From positions 1 to 41,894 of the forward strand of contig PEAK01000037.1 of the NCBI GenBank assembly GCA_002753515.1: DNA of 41,894 nucleotides, written 5' to 3'. The stretch is from Magnetococcales bacterium. Its GTDB lineage: Bacteria; Pseudomonadota; Magnetococcia; Magnetococcales; UBA8363. Positions 2,814-28,656 of this stretch are shown here, in pieces (positions within the stretch are counted from its first letter, which is position 1; each line of letters opens with the position of its first letter). Under the pieces are notes generated by a model. The model was given only the letters and a program-made list of their open reading frames with translations. It had not been told where the DNA came from and did no database searches. A program made the translations under genes and the position numbers.

Positions 2814-3153
2814 GGTATGAGATTCTCCTTGGATTGCGTTGTGCTTCCTTAGGCCAGCGTTTGTTTGACTGGCTTGTGTTAGGCGAGATAATGCAAATCA
2901 GGTGCCATTTCTTGATGTCTTGGTATAAATGACGGATTGATATCGAAATATTTTATTTTGCTGTGTCGTTGCTCTGGAAAAAAACGTATTTGGAATCGTC
3001 CCGGTGTGGGGAATTTGACGATTTTTTGTGTCGATGATCGGGCATGGATTGGCATTGGGGTGGGGTCGTGAGGGTCCAGCATGGCCTGCAATGTTTGGCT
3101 GCTGGGTTGGGTTTCCGAGTACCACTTGAATGGCTCGGCTAGGGGATGAATCT
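2814..3153. other. 340-base intergenic region between divergent genes
   Basis: This region separates the minus-strand small gene from the plus-strand magnetosome accessory genes. Apart from the sigma-70-like promoter at 2865-2892 I see no gene or repeat. The middle part is A/T-rich, as expected of a divergent promoter region. Confidence 0.5.
2865..2892 (+). promoter_or_regulatory. Probable sigma-70 promoter for the accessory magnetosome genes
   Basis: TTGACT (2865-2870) and GATAAT (2887-2892) are separated by 16 bases, close to consensus. Transcription would start near 2899 and give a leader of about 250 bases before the gene at 3154. No operator was recognised. Confidence 0.45.
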
Positions 3154-3492
3154 ATGGAAAACATGGCCAGCAAATTGCTGACGGAACTTGGACCCGGGGA
3201 AGTACTGACGTTGACGGGGCCGGGTGTTGTGCAGGTGAGTGCCGGCAAAACGGTGATGATTGCCAAATCTTCCATGCTGGGATCGGGCAGCATGATTGGT
3301 CATTCCGCCGCAAAATTTGCCCTGCCGGCCATGTCGGCTCATTTTCCGGCCATGGCCATGGGACCGGTATTTGGCGTTGGGCTGTTGGTGCTGGGGGCCA
3401 TGTGGTTGGTCAAAACCTGGACAGAGGGTGACAAACAGTTTGCCGGAGAAGGTGACCCTTCCGTGTCAGGCGGTCTTCATTATGTCGAGTGA
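3154..3492 (+). CDS. Small magnetosome-type membrane protein sharing the Mms6 N-terminal motif
   Basis: Protein of 112 residues from ATG 3154, which has AGGGGAT upstream; ATG 3130 would add eight residues but has no such site. The N-terminus LGPGEVLTLTGPGVVQV closely matches LLPGETLTLIGPGKVEF of the Mms6 homolog at 8731, so the two share a module. A glycine/alanine/methionine-rich stretch follows, then one membrane segment (about residues 68-90, VFGVGLLVLGAMWLV). The tail is acidic. It lacks the LGLGLG block of Mms6. By location and motif it is likely a magnetosome membrane protein; its exact role is unknown. Confidence 0.65.
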   Translation: MENMASKLLTELGPGEVLTLTGPGVVQVSAGKTVMIAKSSMLGSGSMIGHSAAKFALPAMSAHFPAMAMGPVFGVGLLVLGAMWLVKTWTEGDKQFAGEGDPSVSGGLHYVE

Positions 3493-3612: not shown

Positions 3613-4629
3613 ATGGCTGGTACCGAACCGATGCTGTTTGCAGTGGAGGGGGCGCGGCAGGCGGCGCAGTTGAGTACCCTGTCCGGTAAATCCTTTGTTG
3701 TTGGTCAAGTTGCTTCGCCGGGTACCGGACTCACGGGTAACTGGTTATTTCTGCAACCGGCTGGCGAAGTTGGTGCCGCTGCTGCCAAAAAGACGGTTGC
3801 CATTAAACTGGAGGGGGCCAGACAAATGGCGAGCCTCAGCTCACTTACCGGTAAGACCGTGGTGGTGGGCAAGGCACCCGTAACAGTGGGTGGGGCCTGC
3901 CACTGGTTGGCGTTGAATCCGGTGACCGGAAGTGCGGTTGCGGGTGGTGTGGCAACTCCCGGCACTGCGGCGGGATTGACCATGGTCAAGCTGGAAGGGG
4001 GGCGGCAGGCTGTGCAAATGAGTGGTATGGCTGGGAAAACGTTTACGGTTATCCCGTCGCCCTTGATGGGGGCCAAAGGTGCTGATTGGGTCTTCATGCA
4101 ACCGGCAAATGGCGGAAAAATTGTTGCTCTCAAGGTTCAGGCCAATGCCGGCAGCGTGACCTCCTCCTCTTTGGTCGGTAAAAGTTTTATGGTCGGAAAG
4201 GCACCGGTCGTGGCGGGCAAGGGTGGGGCATCGTGGCTCATGCTCAAACCGGCTACTGCGGGTATGACCCTGGTCAAGGGGGGCGGCGGGGCCTGTGTGG
4301 CGGCTGTCGGAGGTGGTGCGGTGGTCGGGTGTCCCGTGGCCACGGCTCAGACGGTTGCTATGACGACACCGGCGGCCTCAGTGGCTCCGGCTGCGGTCGC
4401 GGGCAAAACCGGTACCGTGGTTGGCAAGGCCGCTTTGGCCAAGACCGCTGGTGGCGGCGTGATCTGGAAGGGGACGGGAATGGGGTTGGGAGTTGGTCTC
4501 GGTCTCGGTGCCTGGGGTCCGGCAATACTGTTGGGCGCTGCCGTGACGGGTGTCGGGGTCTACAGTTATTTAAAGCGGCGTAAAGAGGCCGAGGTTGACG
4601 GCGATGCGGTGGAGGCGGCAACAGCGTGA
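3613..4629 (+). CDS. mamD: MamD (Mms7-like) magnetosome protein with four repeats and LG-rich tail
   Basis: Protein of 338 residues; ATG 3613 has GGAG 7 bases upstream. Four internal repeats of about 39 residues occupy roughly 11-49, 67-104, 127-165 and 176-213. Each has an (E)GARQ-like start, an LxGKxFxVG core and a W-L-x-L/M-x-P end. Residues 282-323 carry the hallmark GVGLGLGAWGP block and a membrane segment, then a basic KRRK stop-transfer and an acidic tail (EAEVDGDAVEA). MamD of Magnetospirillum has comparable length and repeats and is bound tightly to magnetite, affecting crystal size. A rho-independent terminator follows, so it ends its transcript. Confidence 0.85.
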   Translation: MAGTEPMLFAVEGARQAAQLSTLSGKSFVVGQVASPGTGLTGNWLFLQPAGEVGAAAAKKTVAIKLEGARQMASLSSLTGKTVVVGKAPVTVGGACHWLALNPVTGSAVAGGVATPGTAAGLTMVKLEGGRQAVQMSGMAGKTFTVIPSPLMGAKGADWVFMQPANGGKIVALKVQANAGSVTSSSLVGKSFMVGKAPVVAGKGGASWLMLKPATAGMTLVKGGGGACVAAVGGGAVVGCPVATAQTVAMTTPAASVAPAAVAGKTGTVVGKAALAKTAGGGVIWKGTGMGLGVGLGLGAWGPAILLGAAVTGVGVYSYLKRRKEAEVDGDAVEAATA

Positions 4630-6919: not shown

Positions 6920-7351
6920 CGGATGAGTTTTTGCAAGGTTTCCTTCGGACTTGGGTTCTTCGATTTTCTTTCGATATTCCTACTTTTGGTGTTGACATGG
7001 TACTTGAGACACCATCTAAGGTTCTATTCTATTCTATTCTATTCTATTCTATTCTATTCTATTCTATTCTATTCTATTCTATTCTATATTTTATTGATAA
7101 ATGTGAACACTTATTCATATATTGATATTGAACACAGTTACAAGTGCTAATTTAACAATACATTTAATCGTCAAAAGTTCTTGCGATTCCAACTTTTCAT
7201 TGCTAACATATCCGCCGCTTGACTGGTGTTTGGCAGGTGGTTAAAACAGAGATTAAAGTGGCGCGTACCCTGAACCGATCAACGGAAATGTGACAGATTG
7301 CGGGTTACGTACTGTGGGGCGTGATAGATTTCATGAGAACGGGGGTTGAAT
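6920..7351. other. 432-base A/T-rich intergenic region with a microsatellite
   Basis: This gene-poor stretch is much more A/T-rich than its surroundings. It contains the TTCTA tandem array at 7022-7086. I see no other gene, and the sequence between the array and the LG-rich gene at 7352 probably carries that gene's promoter, though no consensus boxes stand out. Confidence 0.5.
7022..7086 (+). repeat. Pentanucleotide microsatellite (TTCTA)13
   Basis: Thirteen perfect tandem copies of TTCTA fill 65 bases. A perfect five-base repeat of this length is prone to slippage. It lies 265 bases upstream of the LG-rich magnetosome gene at 7352, so copy-number change could alter promoter spacing or leader length. 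Frames running through it encode FYSIL repeats but have no supporting start signals. Confidence 0.95.
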
Positions 7352-8098
7352 ATGCCAGTAGCTCAAAATACCGTGGTCGTGGCTAACGGAGAACTTGCCA
7401 AACTGACAGGCAAAACGTTCGTCGTTGAAGGTGTCGGGACCAAGAATGCCGTCATCGTGCCGCTTACCGGGGCGGATGGCAAGGCGATCACCACCGGGCA
7501 AAAAATCATGCTGTCGAAGAATGCCACCATTGAGGGCTTGGCCAAAACGGGAGCCGGTAAAGCGGCGGCCGGAACCAAAACCGCCCAGATGGGTAACATC
7601 GCCGTGGTGGGCAACAAAGCGGCGGCAGCCAAGGCCGGAATCGTCCTCCCGAAACTGGTTGAGATTGAAGGGGCCGGCAAATTGGTCGGTACCGGACAGA
7701 CCGTGGGCTTGAATGGCCTGGAAATTCGCGGGGTTCTGCAACCAGGTCCAAACGGAACGGAAGTGATGTTCCAGGGAGGCGAGGCCAAGTTAACGATTAA
7801 AACGGCTGCCGCCAAAGCCAAGGCAGCCGGGGCTACCGCTCTGACCAAGGGGGCGGCTGCGGGCAAAGGGACGGGCGTGTTGGTCAACCAGGCACCAACG
7901 GTGGCGGCAGGTTCTATGACAGGCTCCGCTGCCGGTACAACAGCCGCGAAAGCTGCTGCGGCAGGGACCATCTGGAAGGGTACCGGACTGAGTTTGGGTT
8001 TGGGGCTCGGCCTGGGGGCCTGGGGTCCGGTCCTGTTGGTGGGTGCCGTTGCAGCAGCCGGGGTGGGTGTCTACAGCTACATGAAGCGTAAGGCCTGA
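7352..8098 (+). CDS. LG-rich magnetosome protein (MamD/Mms6-like)
   Basis: Protein of 248 residues from ATG 7352 (GGGGG upstream; an in-frame TTG two codons earlier is less likely). The N-terminal part has one MamD-like unit (ELAKLTGKTFVVEGVG), then a long Ala/Gly/Lys/Thr-rich region. Residues 205-248 match Mms6 closely: GTIWKGTGLSLGLGLGLGAWGP, interrupted here as GTIWKGTG and LSLGLGLGLGAWGP, then a membrane segment and a short basic end (MKRKA). The Leu-Gly repeat drives self-assembly in Mms6. There is no acidic tail. It likely sits in the magnetosome membrane and affects crystal growth. It may be a MamD paralog or a hybrid of MamD and Mms6. Confidence 0.8.
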   Translation: MPVAQNTVVVANGELAKLTGKTFVVEGVGTKNAVIVPLTGADGKAITTGQKIMLSKNATIEGLAKTGAGKAAAGTKTAQMGNIAVVGNKAAAAKAGIVLPKLVEIEGAGKLVGTGQTVGLNGLEIRGVLQPGPNGTEVMFQGGEAKLTIKTAAAKAKAAGATALTKGAAAGKGTGVLVNQAPTVAAGSMTGSAAGTTAAKAAAAGTIWKGTGLSLGLGLGLGAWGPVLLVGAVAAAGVGVYSYMKRKA

Positions 8099-8160
8099 TC
8101 GTTTTGTCTTTTCCCGGGACATGATGGTGGGGCAAGGGAGGGGTGGCCATGGTTAATTAT

Positions 8161-8307
8161 ACCGCAGCTATCTTGGGATGTATAGTTATTGTCATCCCCG
8201 CGAAAGCGGGGATCCAGAGGACTTTCCTACCTCCCCTGACTTTCTGGATTCCCGCTTTCGCGGGAATGACACTGGAAAACTACGTTTCCCGTGTTGGTTG
8301 CGGTTTA
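8161..8307 (+). repeat. REP/MITE-like palindromic element, complete (copy 3)
   Basis: It starts ACCGCAGCTATCTTGG and ends GTTGGTTGCGGTTTA. It contains the two palindromes CCCCGCGAAAGCGGGG and ATTCCCGCTTTCGCGGGAAT. It separates the LG-rich gene at 7352 from the mmsF-like gene at 8367 and is the only thing in that gap. Confidence 0.85.
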
Positions 8308-8366
8308 GATTGTTTTTGGAGTGTTTCTTGATATACAGGCTTTAATGCGCAAAAATAAGGATATAC

Positions 8367-8687
8367 ATGATGGATAAAATAAAAAGAAAAGTGGGCCGCA
8401 GAAGCCGCGTTATGGCCATCATGAGTTATCTGGGTATTCTTTGTCTGGTGCCGCTGGTCTTCAGTCGTGACGATGAGTACGTCAGCTTTCATGCCCGTCA
8501 GGGTGTTGCCTTGTGGATCTGGGGTGTCTTGGCCATTCTGGGACTGTACCTGCCAGGGATCGGGCAGATGTTTTTTAATTTTTCCATCCTGGCGATCACT
8601 TTTCTTTCGTTGGTCGGGATGGTGGCCGTGATTTTTGACCGGGCTTGGCGCTTGCCGTTCGTGTACAATTTGGCTATGAAGTTGTGA
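8367..8687 (+). CDS. mmsF: MmsF-like magnetosome membrane protein
   Basis: Protein of 106 residues with about three membrane segments. It shares MSYLGILCLVPLVF, the FHARQG loop, LWIWGVLA and the terminal WRLPF motif with the proteins at 14061 and 20551, which defines the MamF/MmsF (DUF4870/Tic20-like) family. The usual length is about 100-125 residues. In Magnetospirillum MmsF is a main regulator of crystal size and shape. AAGGAT precedes the ATG. It is followed 43 bases later by mms6, so mmsF-mms6 is probably one operon. MamF is the alternative name; the close link to mms6 favours MmsF. Confidence 0.8.
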   Translation: MMDKIKRKVGRRSRVMAIMSYLGILCLVPLVFSRDDEYVSFHARQGVALWIWGVLAILGLYLPGIGQMFFNFSILAITFLSLVGMVAVIFDRAWRLPFVYNLAMKL

Positions 8688-8730: not shown

Positions 8731-9102
8731 ATGCCAGCCACAACAATGAATGCGGATCTCCTTCCTGGCGAGACCTTGACTTTGATCGGCCCCGGGAAGG
8801 TCGAGTTTCAGGCCGCCAAAGCGGCGCAAGCTGCCAAGGTGGCCAAAGGAGCCACTGTGGCGGGGAAGGGGGTCGTCGGTACCAATGTACAGACGGCTAT
8901 CGGTGGAATTACCAAGACCGGGACAGCGGCGGCTACCTCCACAGCGGTAAAAGCTGGGACGATTTGGACCGGTAAAGGTTTGAGCCTGGGTTTGGGACTT
9001 GGCCTCGGGGCTTGGGGACCGGGGATCTTGGCCGCAGCAGCTATTGGCAGCTACGTCTATTACCGCAAAAAGAAGGCGATGCGTCTTTGGCCCTTTGCCT
9101 GA
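8731..9102 (+). CDS. mms6: Mms6-type magnetite-binding protein with a basic tail
   Basis: Protein of 123 residues; GGAG lies nine bases before ATG 8731. The N-terminal module LLPGETLTLIGPGKVEF also occurs in the protein at 3154. An Ala/Lys-rich segment (about 25-45) leads to GTIWTGKGLSLGLGLG and GAWGPGIL, the signature of Mms6, at residues 76-102, followed by a membrane-spanning stretch. Known Mms6 proteins end in an acidic iron-binding tail; this one ends in YRKKKAMRLWPFA, which is basic and hydrophobic. Size control of magnetite is the expected role, but iron binding by the tail looks unlikely here. A terminator follows directly. Confidence 0.85.
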   Translation: MPATTMNADLLPGETLTLIGPGKVEFQAAKAAQAAKVAKGATVAGKGVVGTNVQTAIGGITKTGTAAATSTAVKAGTIWTGKGLSLGLGLGLGAWGPGILAAAAIGSYVYYRKKKAMRLWPFA

Positions 9103-9123
9103 AGCAAGTGTGACGTTCATCAA

Positions 9124-9163
9124 ACGCCGCAATCTCGCGAAGGCTGGGATTGCGGCGTTTTTT
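9124..9163 (+). terminator. Rho-independent terminator after mms6
   Basis: The perfect stem ACGCCGCAATC / GATTGCGGCGT (about 13-base loop) is followed by a run of T. It lies 22 bases after the mms6 stop and ends the mmsF-mms6 transcript. Confidence 0.9.
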
Positions 9164-9173
9164 ATTGGTTGCG

Positions 9174-9355
9174 GTTTAAACCGCAGCTATCTTGGAATGT
9201 GTCGTTATTGTCATCCCCGCGAAAGCGGGGATCCAGAGCCTACCCCCGAATGCCTGAATCGGAGGGGATCTACACACCTTTCCCTGACTTTCTGGATTCC
9301 CGCTTTCGCGGGAATGACGCTGGAAAACTACACATCCCGCGATGGTTGTGGTTTA
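9174..9355 (+). repeat. REP/MITE-like palindromic element, longest copy (copy 4)
   Basis: It begins in the palindrome GCGGTTTAAACCGC and ends in GATGGTTGTGGTTTA. It has both internal palindromes and about 35 extra bases between them compared with copy 3. The last three bases (TTA) form, on the minus strand, the TAA stop of the TPR gene at 9353. Confidence 0.85.
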
Positions 9356-10362: not shown

Positions 10363-10560
10363 TCAGAAAAAAGTAAAACGCTTCTTGCGGCTGTAATAAT
10401 AGCCACCGATGGCCCCGATGCCGAGAAGGATCCAGGGGTTGACAGCGGCCAAGCTCAACCCCAGGATTTGACCGGAGAGGAGTTTGGCTGGAAACGATTT
10501 TGCAGCAACGATCCCTGAGGCTTTGACCAGGGTGACGGTCGCGGGTTGGTTGGGCACCAT
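10363..10560 (-). CDS. Small magnetosome-type membrane protein (MamG/Mms6-like tail)
   Basis: Protein of 65 residues from the ATG at 10560, which has GGGAGAAA seven bases upstream; the longer frame to 10620 lacks such a site. After a polar N-terminus (ATVTLVKASG) comes QILGLSLAAVNPWILLGIG, a weakened version of the LGLGLGAWGP-IL block, then a membrane span and a Tyr/Arg/Lys end (GGYYYSRKKRF). This layout matches MamG and the C-terminus of Mms6. It is probably a magnetosome membrane protein, but it is short and the match is by pattern only. The TPR gene follows on the same strand. Confidence 0.6.
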   Translation of the reverse strand: MVPNQPATVTLVKASGIVAAKSFPAKLLSGQILGLSLAAVNPWILLGIGAIGGYYYSRKKRFTFF

Positions 10561-10759
10561 GGGTTTCTCCCAGAGTTCATGTGTGATGTTCAGGTGATTG
10601 GTTTCGTATACTGGAGGCACACTGTATCGCCAAAATGAGGGGAGGCCAAGAGGAAAAGAACGTGGGAGGGGTGCTGATAGTCATGTTTTGCCAGGCTGGG
10701 TTGTGATAGCGTGGCGGGATGGGTCATGGTGATGTTTCTTTGAGGATTGAGGTGATTGT

Positions 10760-14060: not shown

Positions 14061-14393
14061 TTACAGCAGGCTCGCGAGCTGGTGGATAAACGGCAGTCGC
14101 CACGCCCGGGAGAACAGGACGGAGACGACCCCGGCGATTGCGAACAGGGTAATCATCAACACCGAGAAGCTGAAAATAAACCCACCCAAAACGGGGACGT
14201 ACAGGCTGAAGATGGCCAGAATGCCCCAAATCCACAGAACCAGACCCTGTTTGGCATGAAACCGGACGTAGTCATCGCCATGATCGTTGAACATCAGGGA
14301 AATCAGGCACAGCACCCCCAAATAGCTGAACATGGCAAGGATTTGCGATTTGGGGGATCGGTGTTTGCTGACTGTTAACGCACGAAACGCCAT
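14061..14393 (-). CDS. MmsF/MamF-like magnetosome membrane protein (second copy)
   Basis: Protein of 110 residues with about three membrane segments. The motifs match the copy at 8367: AMFSYLGVLCLISLMF, VRFHAKQGLVLWIWGILAIF and SRAWRLPFIHQLA. Family members influence magnetite crystal growth. GGAG precedes the ATG. It lies 20 bases after the LG-rich gene at 14414-15025 on the same strand, so the pair forms an operon that mirrors the mmsF-mms6 pair on the plus strand with the order reversed. Confidence 0.8.
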   Translation of the reverse strand: MAFRALTVSKHRSPKSQILAMFSYLGVLCLISLMFNDHGDDYVRFHAKQGLVLWIWGILAIFSLYVPVLGGFIFSFSVLMITLFAIAGVVSVLFSRAWRLPFIHQLASLL

Positions 14394-14413: not shown

Positions 14414-15025
14414 TTAGCTGATGGCATCATCCAATTCGTTGGCAATGCCTTTTTTATTTTTTATATAACTGTAAATACCGATACCCAGTGCGGCGGTTGC
14501 ACCTGCGACGAGGAGGGGTGCCATGCCGCCGAGGCTGAAACCGAGGCCGGGCAGGGTGCTGGACAAAAAAGAGCTGCCGGTGGTGATTCCCTTGATGGCA
14601 ACGCCACTGGGAGAAGCGAGGACGCCCTTGGAGGTGACGAGGCCGCCGGCTGCCAATGTTTTTCCGGTAGTGGCCTTGGTGGTGGCAGCAATGGTTGCTG
14701 GTGTGGCCTTGGCCGTGGTTCCTTTGATTGCAGCGGCTTTGGTTGTGGCGGTTTGGGTTGCAGCACCTTTGACAGCGGTTGTTTTGGCCGTTGTGATTTT
14801 TGCAGCTTTTACCCCTTCGGGTGCTTCCCATTCGGCACCCGGGGGCAGGTTGGCAGGGGGGGTGACTGCGGTTGCTTTGGCGGGCAATGTGGCGGCTTTG
14901 CCTGCCTTGGTTTTGGCGGCAACGGCCTTGGCACCTTCAGGCGCTTCCACCTCCACCCCGGGTGGTGGTGGGCTCACGGTCCCCTGGTTGAGTCCTCCAG
15001 CTTGGGTCTTCGCGGCGATGGCCAT
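14414..15025 (-). CDS. LG-related magnetosome protein with an Ala/Thr/Lys-rich region
   Basis: Protein of 203 residues. Two related blocks, PPPGVEVEAPEGAKA and LPPGAEWEAPEGVKA (near residues 20-35 and 60-75), are joined by low-complexity Lys/Ala/Thr sequence reaching about residue 130. The end has LPGLGFSLGGMAPLLVAG, a degenerate form of the LGLGLGAWGP block, then a membrane span, the basic IKNKK and an acidic NELDDAIS tail. That order (LG block, span, basic, acidic) is that of Mms6/MamD. It is probably a magnetosome membrane protein of this group. It shares a divergent promoter region with mamH. Confidence 0.75.
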   Translation of the reverse strand: MAIAAKTQAGGLNQGTVSPPPPGVEVEAPEGAKAVAAKTKAGKAATLPAKATAVTPPANLPPGAEWEAPEGVKAAKITTAKTTAVKGAATQTATTKAAAIKGTTAKATPATIAATTKATTGKTLAAGGLVTSKGVLASPSGVAIKGITTGSSFLSSTLPGLGFSLGGMAPLLVAGATAALGIGIYSYIKNKKGIANELDDAIS

Positions 15026-25749: not shown

Positions 25750-28656
25750 TTGACCTGCTTGCATAACGCCGTGTCCGACACTATTGATCCCGTGGATGCG
25801 ACTGACACTTCCAAGTTGGAAGAAAATCTTTGGGCTGCCCGCATGGATCGGATGGATGCCATGATTCAGGGGGCCATGATGAAGCGCCAAGCCATGCTTG
25901 CCCTGGAAACGGCTATCCCTGATGTAAGCCGTGAAAGGATGGGGGAGGCCACCGATAGCGTTTATCGTGCGCTCATGGAAAAGCAGGTGAGTCAGGCTGC
26001 GGGGGATAGGGAGGAGGAGCAGCTTGAAGGGGAGGGTGGAGCGGACGAAGCGGGTGGGTCGAACGAATCGGATTGGGCGGACGCGGAGGGTACGGGGGAA
26101 GAGGATAAGGCGGACAGGGAGGATAGAACGGTTGAAGAGGGTGGAGCGGACGAGGTCATTCTGCAAAACCTAGCAGTTTCACGGACTCCTGATGGTTCTG
26201 GCGCGGTATCGACGAAGAGTGCGAATCGATTGGCGTACACCGCAACGATGCGTGTTCAGGAAAGGTCGGAACCGGCGAACTTGTTGGAGAATGGGGAGGG
26301 GGACAACGAAGAATTGGAGCTGCGATTGCTTCCACGCTCGCATTTGCAATCGGGTGGCAAGGATGAAGATAGCGCACCATCTGTGTTACGGGGTCCGGAT
26401 AGGGGGAGGGGCGAGGCGCTTGAAACACAGAACAGACTGAGTTCGGATGGTGAGGGGGGGGATCAGGAATTCGGGTATGGGGGTGAGGTGGCATTGCCCC
26501 TCAGGAGTCGGGATATTCATGCCGAACCCACGCCTATGGAACTGTTCCAGATCATGTCGCATAAACGGCAGGTGGGCGTAACGCAATCGTTGCAGTCAAG
26601 TCTTGAAATGGGGAACACTTCCGTACGCTGGAACGAGGGTGCGGCACAACGTTTTACTGGTGATGACCCTGTGTTGGAAATGGTGGAAGATATTGTGCCT
26701 GCATCTGCAGGTGGCTTCCCTGGTCTTCCCCATTCGGGGTCCATCGAACAACCGCTCGCGGTCAGGACAATGCCACCTGACCAAAATACCATGGGTCGTT
26801 TGCTCTCCTTGTTCGGGCAATCGCGTCAGCAGGAGACCCGAGTGGCATCTCAAGATGTTCATAATCGAGGGGTGCGGCAGCCGGAAGTTGGACCGGTCGC
26901 GTCTCCAATCCTTGCGGATGACAATATGAGCAGGGCAGTCCCAGTGAGTGAAGGGGGGGCACCTGCCCCTCTGGGGACGGCTGACGAGCCTGCGGATGTA
27001 GAAAAAAACAGATTATCACGCACATTGCATGATTTTCGGAGTCATAGACAGGCGATGATGGTTGCGAGTGCGGTAAAGGCTCCGGGATTGATCCCCGGGT
27101 CGGTGAGTTCCGGGCATACGTTATCCAGGCTTTTGGTTGAGGAGGAAACACTGAATGTTCCGTTTGTTGCAACAGAGGGTGAGGATGCGACAAACGCTGG
27201 TGACTGGAATGATTCACAGGAATTGACGGAAATGCCACCTGGTAGCGCATTGGAGGCAGGAAAGGCCGTTGGCGTTTCTGAATATGCCGTTGCGGTTGGT
27301 TCTCCAGAGGAAATGGCCGGGATTGAAGGATTGGAAGATGCCAAAGCGTTTGGCACTCTGGATGACAATGAGTCCGTCGGCGATTTTGAAGATACCGATA
27401 CAGTTGATTCTCCAGAGGAAATGGCCGGGATTGAAGGATTGGAAGATGCCGAAGCGTTTGGCACTCTGGATGACAATGAGTCCGTCGGCGATTTTGAAGA
27501 AACCGTTGCAGTTGATTCTCTGGAGGAAATGGCTGGGATTGATGTATTGGGTGATGCCGAAGCGTTTGGTACTCTGGAGAGTGGCGCGGCAGATGGCGCT
27601 TTGGAAGAAGTCATTGAGATTGGCGCACGGGATGATGGTGAGGAAAGTGGTGTTTTGGCGGAAATGGAAGGGGTTGGTGTTTGGGAGGATACCGAACTGA
27701 CGGTTGGTATGGAGACCAAGGTTACGCCATCGGTCCCGGACGCCTACCTTCGGCACCATGAAGAAACGGTGTCCGAGCTTATGGCGAACATGACCCTGGA
27801 GGAAGAAAAAGAGTGCGTCCGTGGCGAGGAACCCGACTTGCCCATCCCCGCTGTGACGCGTGGCAGGAGGAGGTTCAGGCAGAAAAAGTTGCCAGAGGGT
27901 TTCTTTACTCAGGATTTTCGGGATTCCCAAGGTGCTGAAGGGGGTGGCCTAGTTGCCGGGGGGTATGGTGTCAAACCGTTGGTTCGGGTTCATAGGTTGG
28001 ATGAATTGCATTTTGCTTGGCGCTCCATGGTGCGTATGTTCGGGAGCTTCTCCGAATCCTTGGTCCGGAAATATTTGGCGTGGACATCCCTGGATGGCAA
28101 AGCTTGGACTGAGTATTACCTGACCCGGGGTCGTAGATCCCTGGCTTTGGGAAGGGTCCATGATGCGGTGTTGTACTTTGGCAGAGCCTTGGAAAAAAAT
28201 GAAGACAATGTGGCCATTTTGGCAGCGTTGGGGCGCTGTCATATCTCTTTGGGATCCTTCGAACAGGCTTTGAATTATTTGGAAAAGGCCAAGGAACGGG
28301 ATCAAGCGGGTGGGGCGTGGCTGGACGCTGACCTGATCGTGGCCTATAGTGGATGCCAGATCTTTGATCAGGCGGAAAGATTGCTGCGACATGGCCTGGA
28401 TGCAGATCGAAGTGCTTCAAATGATCGCTCTGCCTTATGGTTTCAGCTCGCGGAACTCCTGGCGCGTCAGGAGCGCCACGCCGATGCCGTCGAGGCCTAT
28501 CGTGAGGCTGTGGCCCTCAAACCGACACGTCGGGATTATCAGCGGGCGTTGGGGTTCGCTCTGCAAATGGTGGGGCAAAGCAAAGAGGCGGTTGCCCATT
28601 TGAAAATGGCTGAATCTGTGGATGATAGGGAGTTGACCCCTGGAAATTTGGGGTAG
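25750..28656 (+). CDS. Large MamA-like protein with a long acidic N-terminal region
   Basis: Protein of up to 968 residues; the TTG at 25750 is the furthest start, and GTG 25771 or ATG 25843 are possible because no clear ribosome binding site decides. Residues 1 to about 740 are low-complexity, Glu/Asp/Gly-rich and likely disordered, with three 36-residue repeats at about 518-620. Residues 750-965 resemble MamA: a lead-in FAWRSMVRMFGSFSESLV parallels VVKRAFVAATESFNNF of MamA, then EYYLTRGRRSLALGR and further TPR units (AEAYREAVALKP-like). It lies 34 bases after mamA, so it arose probably by duplication with a new extension. An acidic region might bind iron or MamK; this is inference. I know no named mam gene like it. 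Confidence 0.8.
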   Translation: MTCLHNAVSDTIDPVDATDTSKLEENLWAARMDRMDAMIQGAMMKRQAMLALETAIPDVSRERMGEATDSVYRALMEKQVSQAAGDREEEQLEGEGGADEAGGSNESDWADAEGTGEEDKADREDRTVEEGGADEVILQNLAVSRTPDGSGAVSTKSANRLAYTATMRVQERSEPANLLENGEGDNEELELRLLPRSHLQSGGKDEDSAPSVLRGPDRGRGEALETQNRLSSDGEGGDQEFGYGGEVALPLRSRDIHAEPTPMELFQIMSHKRQVGVTQSLQSSLEMGNTSVRWNEGAAQRFTGDDPVLEMVEDIVPASAGGFPGLPHSGSIEQPLAVRTMPPDQNTMGRLLSLFGQSRQQETRVASQDVHNRGVRQPEVGPVASPILADDNMSRAVPVSEGGAPAPLGTADEPADVEKNRLSRTLHDFRSHRQAMMVASAVKAPGLIPGSVSSGHTLSRLLVEEETLNVPFVATEGEDATNAGDWNDSQELTEMPPGSALEAGKAVGVSEYAVAVGSPEEMAGIEGLEDAKAFGTLDDNESVGDFEDTDTVDSPEEMAGIEGLEDAEAFGTLDDNESVGDFEETVAVDSLEEMAGIDVLGDAEAFGTLESGAADGALEEVIEIGARDDGEESGVLAEMEGVGVWEDTELTVGMETKVTPSVPDAYLRHHEETVSELMANMTLEEEKECVRGEEPDLPIPAVTRGRRRFRQKKLPEGFFTQDFRDSQGAEGGGLVAGGYGVKPLVRVHRLDELHFAWRSMVRMFGSFSESLVRKYLAWTSLDGKAWTEYYLTRGRRSLALGRVHDAVLYFGRALEKNEDNVAILAALGRCHISLGSFEQALNYLEKAKERDQAGGAWLDADLIVAYSGCQIFDQAERLLRHGLDADRSASNDRSALWFQLAELLARQERHADAVEAYREAVALKPTRRDYQRALGFALQMVGQSKEAVAHLKMAESVDDRELTPGNLG
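27301..27582 (+). repeat. 108-base tandem coding repeat (about 2.6 copies)
   Basis: The unit starting TCTCCAGAGGAAATGGCC recurs at 27301 and 27409, and as TCTCTGGAGGAAATGGCT at 27517. Copies 1 and 2 are nearly identical and copy 3 is more diverged and incomplete. The unit encodes 36 residues beginning SPEEMAGIEGLEDA and ending near DNESVGDFE. Confidence 0.9.

Follow-up and report, generated by a model that had tools for sequence, protein, structure and literature searches.

The hallmark of Mms6 is its acidic, iron-binding end, and the question raised by the open reading frame (ORF) at 8731-9102 of the window (the whole stretch of 41,894 nucleotides analyzed here, which is contig G000:C93 of a Magnetococcales source assembly of 4.33 Mb in 134 contigs) is what to make of a protein that carries a Leu-Gly (LG) block of the Mms6 kind and closes on a basic tail. 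A first-pass annotation of this DNA had called the gene an Mms6 homolog and proposed that the iron-binding job had passed to another member of the family. The LG block alone easily leads to the label Mms6-like for relatives in new genomes, and Mms6-like proteins of these bacteria have already been published, namely as Mms6-L and as "HP similar to Mms6" (excerpts of PMC9840458 and PMC3934378, respectively). What we find is that the ORF is genuine and that its product, a putative membrane protein of the magnetosome type, is conserved among magnetotactic cocci and has a basic tail closed by Trp-Pro-Phe (WPF). The gene, its parts and its downstream hairpin are the following:

8731-9102, plus strand: coding sequence of the WPF-tailed LG protein, 123 amino acids, with an ATG start and a TGA stop at 9100-9102, under purifying selection.
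8731-8814, plus strand: N-terminal domain, MPATTMNADLLPGETLTLIGPGKVEFQA, delimited by alignment and common to the family with KKKRFSFF ends.
8815-8955, plus strand: linker rich in Ala, Gly and Thr, of variable length in the alignment.
8956-9021, plus strand: LG block, GTIWTGKGLSLGLGLGLGAWGP, from sequence, alignment and profile match.
9016-9063, plus strand: likely membrane helix, from AlphaFold2 at low confidence.
9064-9099, plus strand: basic-aromatic tail, RKKKAMRLWPFA, from alignment and end classification.
9122-9160, plus strand: hairpin of 16 pairs resembling an intrinsic terminator, about 20 nt past the stop.

Is this end real? Reading the sequence, we locate GGAG 9 nt before the ATG at 8731. 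The C-terminus of the ORF is YYRKKKAMRLWPFA, and from R112 on it holds no acidic and five basic residues; the intact LG block and the missing acidic tail, both noted at first pass, are in this sense just as they had been described. One could argue that such a tail is the product of a sequencing error or a frameshift, the very finding that the first-pass annotation had named as capable of overturning its reading. We found no point in favor of this explanation, and its probability is negligible. Namely, the two other frames, both read from the R112 point, give either 17 residues (2 acidic, 2 basic) or 114 residues (10 acidic, 14 basic), and neither restores an acidic tail. What is more, G046, a congeneric species, shares the gene order around the locus and encodes an identical protein, with 15 of the 372 bases different and all of the differences synonymous. 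Together with the W[PS][FL] ends conserved in nine genera of the order, these observations rule out a frameshift or an assembly error. Finally, among seven congeneric sequences, pN/pS is lowest in the LG block with the membrane segment (0.10) and the N-terminal domain (0.11), and higher in the tail (0.16) and the linker (0.24); the tail figure comes from just 12 codons, and pS is near saturation.

Comparison with other cocci, which had been put forward as a check at first pass, brings out what had been overlooked there, namely that the basic tail is a conserved signature. The search of the order covered 48 genomes and gave matches in 41; the DNA around the matches was read and LG-type ORFs were classed by their end, with 115 of the 122 candidates kept and 7 removed (no regular LG core, fewer than 85 residues, or poly-Gly). 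A W[PS][FL] end after a K/R cluster is present in 28 of the 115, spread over 23 of the 48 genomes, 9 of the 17 genera and 8 of the 14 families of the order. Exactly W[PS][FL] closes 25 of them, while two (the window and G046) add an Ala and one (in G007) ends WPFTRN. Among the remaining 87 ORFs, acidic ends are of the ELxxA type in 22 and of other types in 29; a further 18 close on neutral or basic residues, KRKA for example, and the last 18 belong to a sister family. As a control, W[PS][FL] followed by 0-3 residues was found in 26 of 89 LG-type ORFs versus 14 of 4354 other mechanical ORFs from the same stretches, a comparison in which the sequences are related and so are not independent events. 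The mean net charge of the C-terminal tail is +4.1 in the 28 WPF ORFs; LG ORFs whose end is of the acid-then-Ser kind, 33 in number, average -2.1. In an alignment of 23 of the 28 WPF ORFs (the identical G046 copy, L068, which is cut by a contig end, and the long L069, L071 and L072 were left out), L10, E14, G20-P21-G22, F26, several LG glycines, Y108 and W120 are invariant, and P121 is nearly so. The features of this coccus subfamily, that is, the GPG domain, the LG block, the K/R cluster and W[PS][FL], are all found in the 8731-9102 protein, with one Ala in addition.

A further LG gene of the window bears on how closely this end is tied to the rest of the protein:

7346-8098, plus strand: longer LG paralogue ending KRKA, with WPF-ended counterparts in three g7 genomes.

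Given these three g7 genomes, the WPF end is not bound to one N-terminal architecture. The three longer WPF proteins (L069, L071 and L072), being related to a protein that ends KRKA, also suggest an exchange of tails between paralogues. In a tree of the LG segment (50 columns), WPF rows stand in several places and five changes are drawn, although the starred branches force only one, so that these few columns would also fit a single origin of the end. Altogether, the LG block or its sister form bears at least four kinds of end (acidic ELxxAIS, basic WPF, basic FSFF and short KRKA), and, consequently, annotation from the LG block risks assigning a wrong function in cocci.

To which family does the protein then belong? 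The WPF profile matches the sister family, with ends such as KKKRFSFF, over nearly its full length (99.5%, E 3.5e-23), the sister-family alignment comprising 10 of the 18 NPW rows. Against Mms6, the match covers 47 columns only, those of the LG block and the membrane segment (99.3%, 57% identity), and it begins only at the LG segment, leaving the Mms6-type N-terminal region unmatched. In the sister family, a K/R cluster followed by a terminal F, L, V or W is found in 17 of the 18 members, and one member lies in the window:

10363-10620, minus strand: sister-family member ending RKKRFTFF, without the N-terminal GPG domain that is kept in other genera.

Membership of the 8731-9102 protein in Mms6, MamD or MamG was considered and rejected on the NCBIfam cut-offs, all of which it misses: the best score is 53.6 bits for NF040916 (MamD; cut-off 100), followed by 49.8 bits for NF040917 (Mms6; cut-off 200) and 41.5 bits for NF040985 (MamG; cut-off 100). 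The Mms6 cut-off is a narrow one, passed by none of 398 genomes of the phylum, and for this reason missing it says little by itself. Pfam has no family for the protein.

The same picture emerges when known proteins are taken one at a time. The Mms6 of Magnetospirillum has in common with our protein the LG repeat, GTIWTGKGL.LGLGLGLGAWGP, and the membrane segment that follows, but it carries an acidic DEEVELRDALA tail, whereas the 8731-9102 protein is without an acidic C-terminal region; the N-terminal domains are unlike, and the mms6 gene has its MamF-like gene downstream, whereas here the MamF-like gene lies upstream and a terminator downstream. MamD (Mms7) is similar in its LG block and likely in its C-terminal membrane helix, but its long N-terminal part is missing from our protein and the tails differ. 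MamG is likewise small, carries an LG block and has no strongly acidic tail, but its tails end in mixed K/D/E/A residues with no WPF. As for Mms6-L and "HP similar to Mms6" of published magnetotactic bacteria, the excerpts describe a region in common with Mms6 (PMC9840458, PMC3934378), and the likeness to our protein is, within these excerpts, set by that shared-region label and not by tail sequence; in IT-1, the gene of the "HP similar to Mms6" adjoins MmsF (loci 2798 and 2799) in the same excerpts, which fits an acid-tailed pair of the kind described below. Judged by sequence, the 8731-9102 protein forms a branch of its own within the Leu-Gly family and is not an Mms6 bereft of its iron-binding tail. 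In other words, the label of Mms6 homolog is right about the kinship of the LG block and unsupported as regards the gene, since homology stops at the 47 columns and both the N-terminal domain and the tail belong with another family.

If this gene is not mms6, the acid-tailed LG genes of the window deserve attention:

14414-15025, minus strand: acid-tailed Mms6-type member ending NELDDAIS, with an eroded LG block, LPGLGFSLGGMAP, recognized by tail and gene order.
14061-14393, minus strand: its MamF-like partner, directly downstream, in mms6-mmsF order.
3613-4629, plus strand: MamD (275.5 bits against a cut-off of 100), with the LG block kept and a mixed, mildly acidic tail.

The Mms6-like gene of the window, as told by its tail and gene order, is the one at 14414-15025 on the minus strand. 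Its NELDDAIS end compares with EVELRDALA in Mms6, the mms6-mmsF order is present in Magnetospirillum loci, and an acid-tailed LG protein followed by a MamF-like gene recurs in eight genomes from four families (the window, G046, G041, G042, G008, G038, G039 and G004). The acidic tails that the first-pass annotation had pointed to on MamD (...KRRKEAEVDGDAVEAATA) and on the 14414 protein (...KNKKGIANELDDAIS) are real, if weakly acidic, and weaker than that of Mms6. Within the genus, the 14414-type protein has an eroded LG block, which reads LPGLGFSLGGMAP in the window and LSGLGISLGGWGP and VPAVGIGLGSWAP in two relatives; in other genera, the block is regular. Consequently, the LG repeat and the Mms6-type end are here mostly on different proteins, with MamD retaining both the LG block and a mixed tail. 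Acid-type LG proteins co-occur with WPF ORFs in 22 of 23 genomes, a count made up of 19 from the end classification plus G005, G041 and G042 from a comparison of tail charge and motif (the tails of G005 are acid-type by motif, such as DALDEAIS, and not net negative in the end classification). The one exception is a 75%-complete genome.

Could the 8731-9102 gene still be orthologous to mms6, its acidic tail having been replaced in this lineage and iron binding moved to MamD or to the 14414 protein? Its LG block is of the same kind, the 57% identity extends across the LG and membrane segments, and acid tails do occur nearby. That said, we consider such an origin decidedly improbable. In particular, the case is weakened by an N-terminal domain and a tail that are not Mms6-like and are common to another family; the 50-column LG tree places Mms6 rows of the Magnetospirillum type apart from the set holding the WPF rows; the WPF end is widespread, occurring in nine genera; and the acid protein with its MamF-like gene, found in the eight genomes listed above, is a different gene. 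With the likeness to Mms6 limited to 47 columns and the WPF end spread so broadly, the idea that iron binding has moved off the Mms6 gene finds no support as it had been stated; what survives of it is a weaker form, in which the acid-tailed partner is, in this genus, without a regular LG repeat.

The immediate neighbor of the gene is also of the MamF type:

8367-8687, plus strand: MamF-like protein, directly upstream of 8731-9102.

This order, a MamF-like gene and then the WPF gene, is seen in all seven WPF genomes of the genus. In g7, mamB and mamS flank the short WPF form in 5 of 5 genomes, and in g16 the WPF gene adjoins mamH in 2 of 2; the fetched stretch of four g14 loci, L094 and L098 contained no further magnetosome genes of the window type, which makes a magnetosome role more tentative there. 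The names MamF for 8367 and MmsF for 14061, taken from pairwise identities, were dropped on the topology of the MamF-like tree, in which all alphaproteobacterial proteins form one clade apart from the coccus copies, so that descent justifies neither name. According to an excerpt of PMC11628618, MamG and Mms6 of MSR-1 are independent of MamF-like proteins despite similar motifs, and a dependence of the 8731 protein on gene 8367 is for this reason not implied. An excerpt of PMC6783814 reports UR-1 and related strains to be without mms6; that such genes occur patchily among cocci was hence known already.

Outside the order, named genomes were scanned and yielded 44 loci, in which Magnetospirillum-type Mms6, MamG and MamD, as well as further LG proteins, have acidic or mixed tails. 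None of 60 distinct LG ORFs gathered outside the order has a W[PS][FLIV] end, and of the 88 matches of the WPF profile in 24 of the named genomes, all of them outside Magnetococcales as judged by record title, one starts at position 1 and none reaches the last four of the 125 model positions. In the open-licence literature, we found no description of a WPF end of magnetosome proteins. The match that starts at position 1, a protein in a gammaproteobacterial bin (L192), combines a GPG N-terminal domain and an LG block with a long basic tail without WPF, and the GPG plus LG architecture is therefore not strictly limited to cocci.

As far as sequence goes, the family of the protein, the conservation of its tail and its separateness from Mms6 are established. 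The function that we favor, with a probability of roughly 55%, is that of a non-iron-binding LG co-assembler of the magnetosome membrane, with its end anchored or docked and with any iron-binding surface carried by its acid-tailed relatives, presumably MamD and the 14414 protein. The AlphaFold2 model is poor (mean pLDDT 51), with one low-confidence helix at residues 96-118 (pLDDT about 60-70) that extends into the basic K/R cluster, by which the protein would insert into the magnetosome membrane. There, its LG repeat would pack with other LG proteins; excerpts of PMC4900750 propose that Mms6 rafts form by LG packing, possibly with other LG Mms proteins, and those of PMC11332177 describe the acidic tail of Mms6 as unnecessary for localization in most cells and implicate the GL region. 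The basic-aromatic end would not bind iron and would instead fix the end of the helix at the membrane surface or dock on a partner. In this manner, the WPF protein would act as a spacer, anchor or cap in mixed LG rafts and might thereby affect crystal size or shape. This reading draws on the conserved end, the near full-length match to the sister family against 47 columns for Mms6, the contrast in tail charge, the purely synonymous divergence from G046, the neighboring magnetosome genes and the acid-type relatives in 22 of 23 genomes.

Two other roles of the tail have to be weighed. It may be a generic membrane-interface anchor, consisting of K/R with Trp/Phe and requiring no specific partner, which we regard as unlikely, albeit the most credible of the alternatives. 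The composition of the tail and the predicted helix running into the K/R cluster agree with it, but a Trp-Pro-Phe order fixed across nine genera is not something that a generic anchor needs. PDZ domains, on the other hand, prefer hydrophobic C-termini, and the terminal Trp-Pro-Phe could serve as a docking peptide, bound for instance by the PDZ domains of MamE, MamO or MamP, or else as a sorting mark for MamF-like (Tic20-like) inserters. This we find rather doubtful. An exact W[PS][FL] terminus in 25 of the 28 ORFs and the F, L, V or W ends of the sister family would suit docking, as would the proteolysis of MamD by MamE (excerpt of PMC11332177) and the targeting by MamF-like proteins of some proteins with glycine-rich C-terminal membrane domains (excerpt of PMC11628618). 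However, the WPFA of the window and G046 and the WPFTRN of G007 disfavor an interpretation that depends strictly on the final residue. Moreover, the positive-inside rule states that the positively charged flank of a membrane helix faces the cytoplasm, and, if it holds, the tail would be cytoplasmic, whereas the PDZ domains are luminal. A published MamE PDZ ligand was not found in our literature search. A bolder possibility, which we offer as speculation and consider quite unlikely, is a division of the Mms6 principle among several proteins of the magnetotactic cocci. LG raft-formers would bear a docking code, KKxx-WPF or KKK-RFSFF, for recognition by a receptor of the magnetosome, be it a MamF-like inserter or a PDZ protease such as MamE; their acid-tailed partners would, in this genus, have lost the LG repeat. 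If this were true, a bacterial organelle would have, in the short basic-aromatic end, a C-terminal tag for addressing or assembly. To return to the LG co-assembler that we favor, the conserved WPF end opens a direct test of crystal shaping by LG packing without an acidic end, and of the reader of the tail.

Several other features of the window may be mentioned. A small protein at 3130-3492 (plus strand) shares the N-terminal GPG motif (LGPGEVLTLTGPGVV) but lacks an LG block and differs in its membrane segment, and its relatives occur in several coccus clusters. An intergenic repeat is found at 2190-2420, 8150-8330 and 9170-9350, with a palindromic core (CCCCGCGAAAGCGGGGATCC ... TTCCCGCTTTCGCGGGAAT) and frames that read PAKAGIQ...WIPAFAGMT. 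Finally, a very large TPR-type ORF of 968 amino acids with internal acidic repeats (25750-28656, plus strand) lies between mamA-like and mamQ-like genes.
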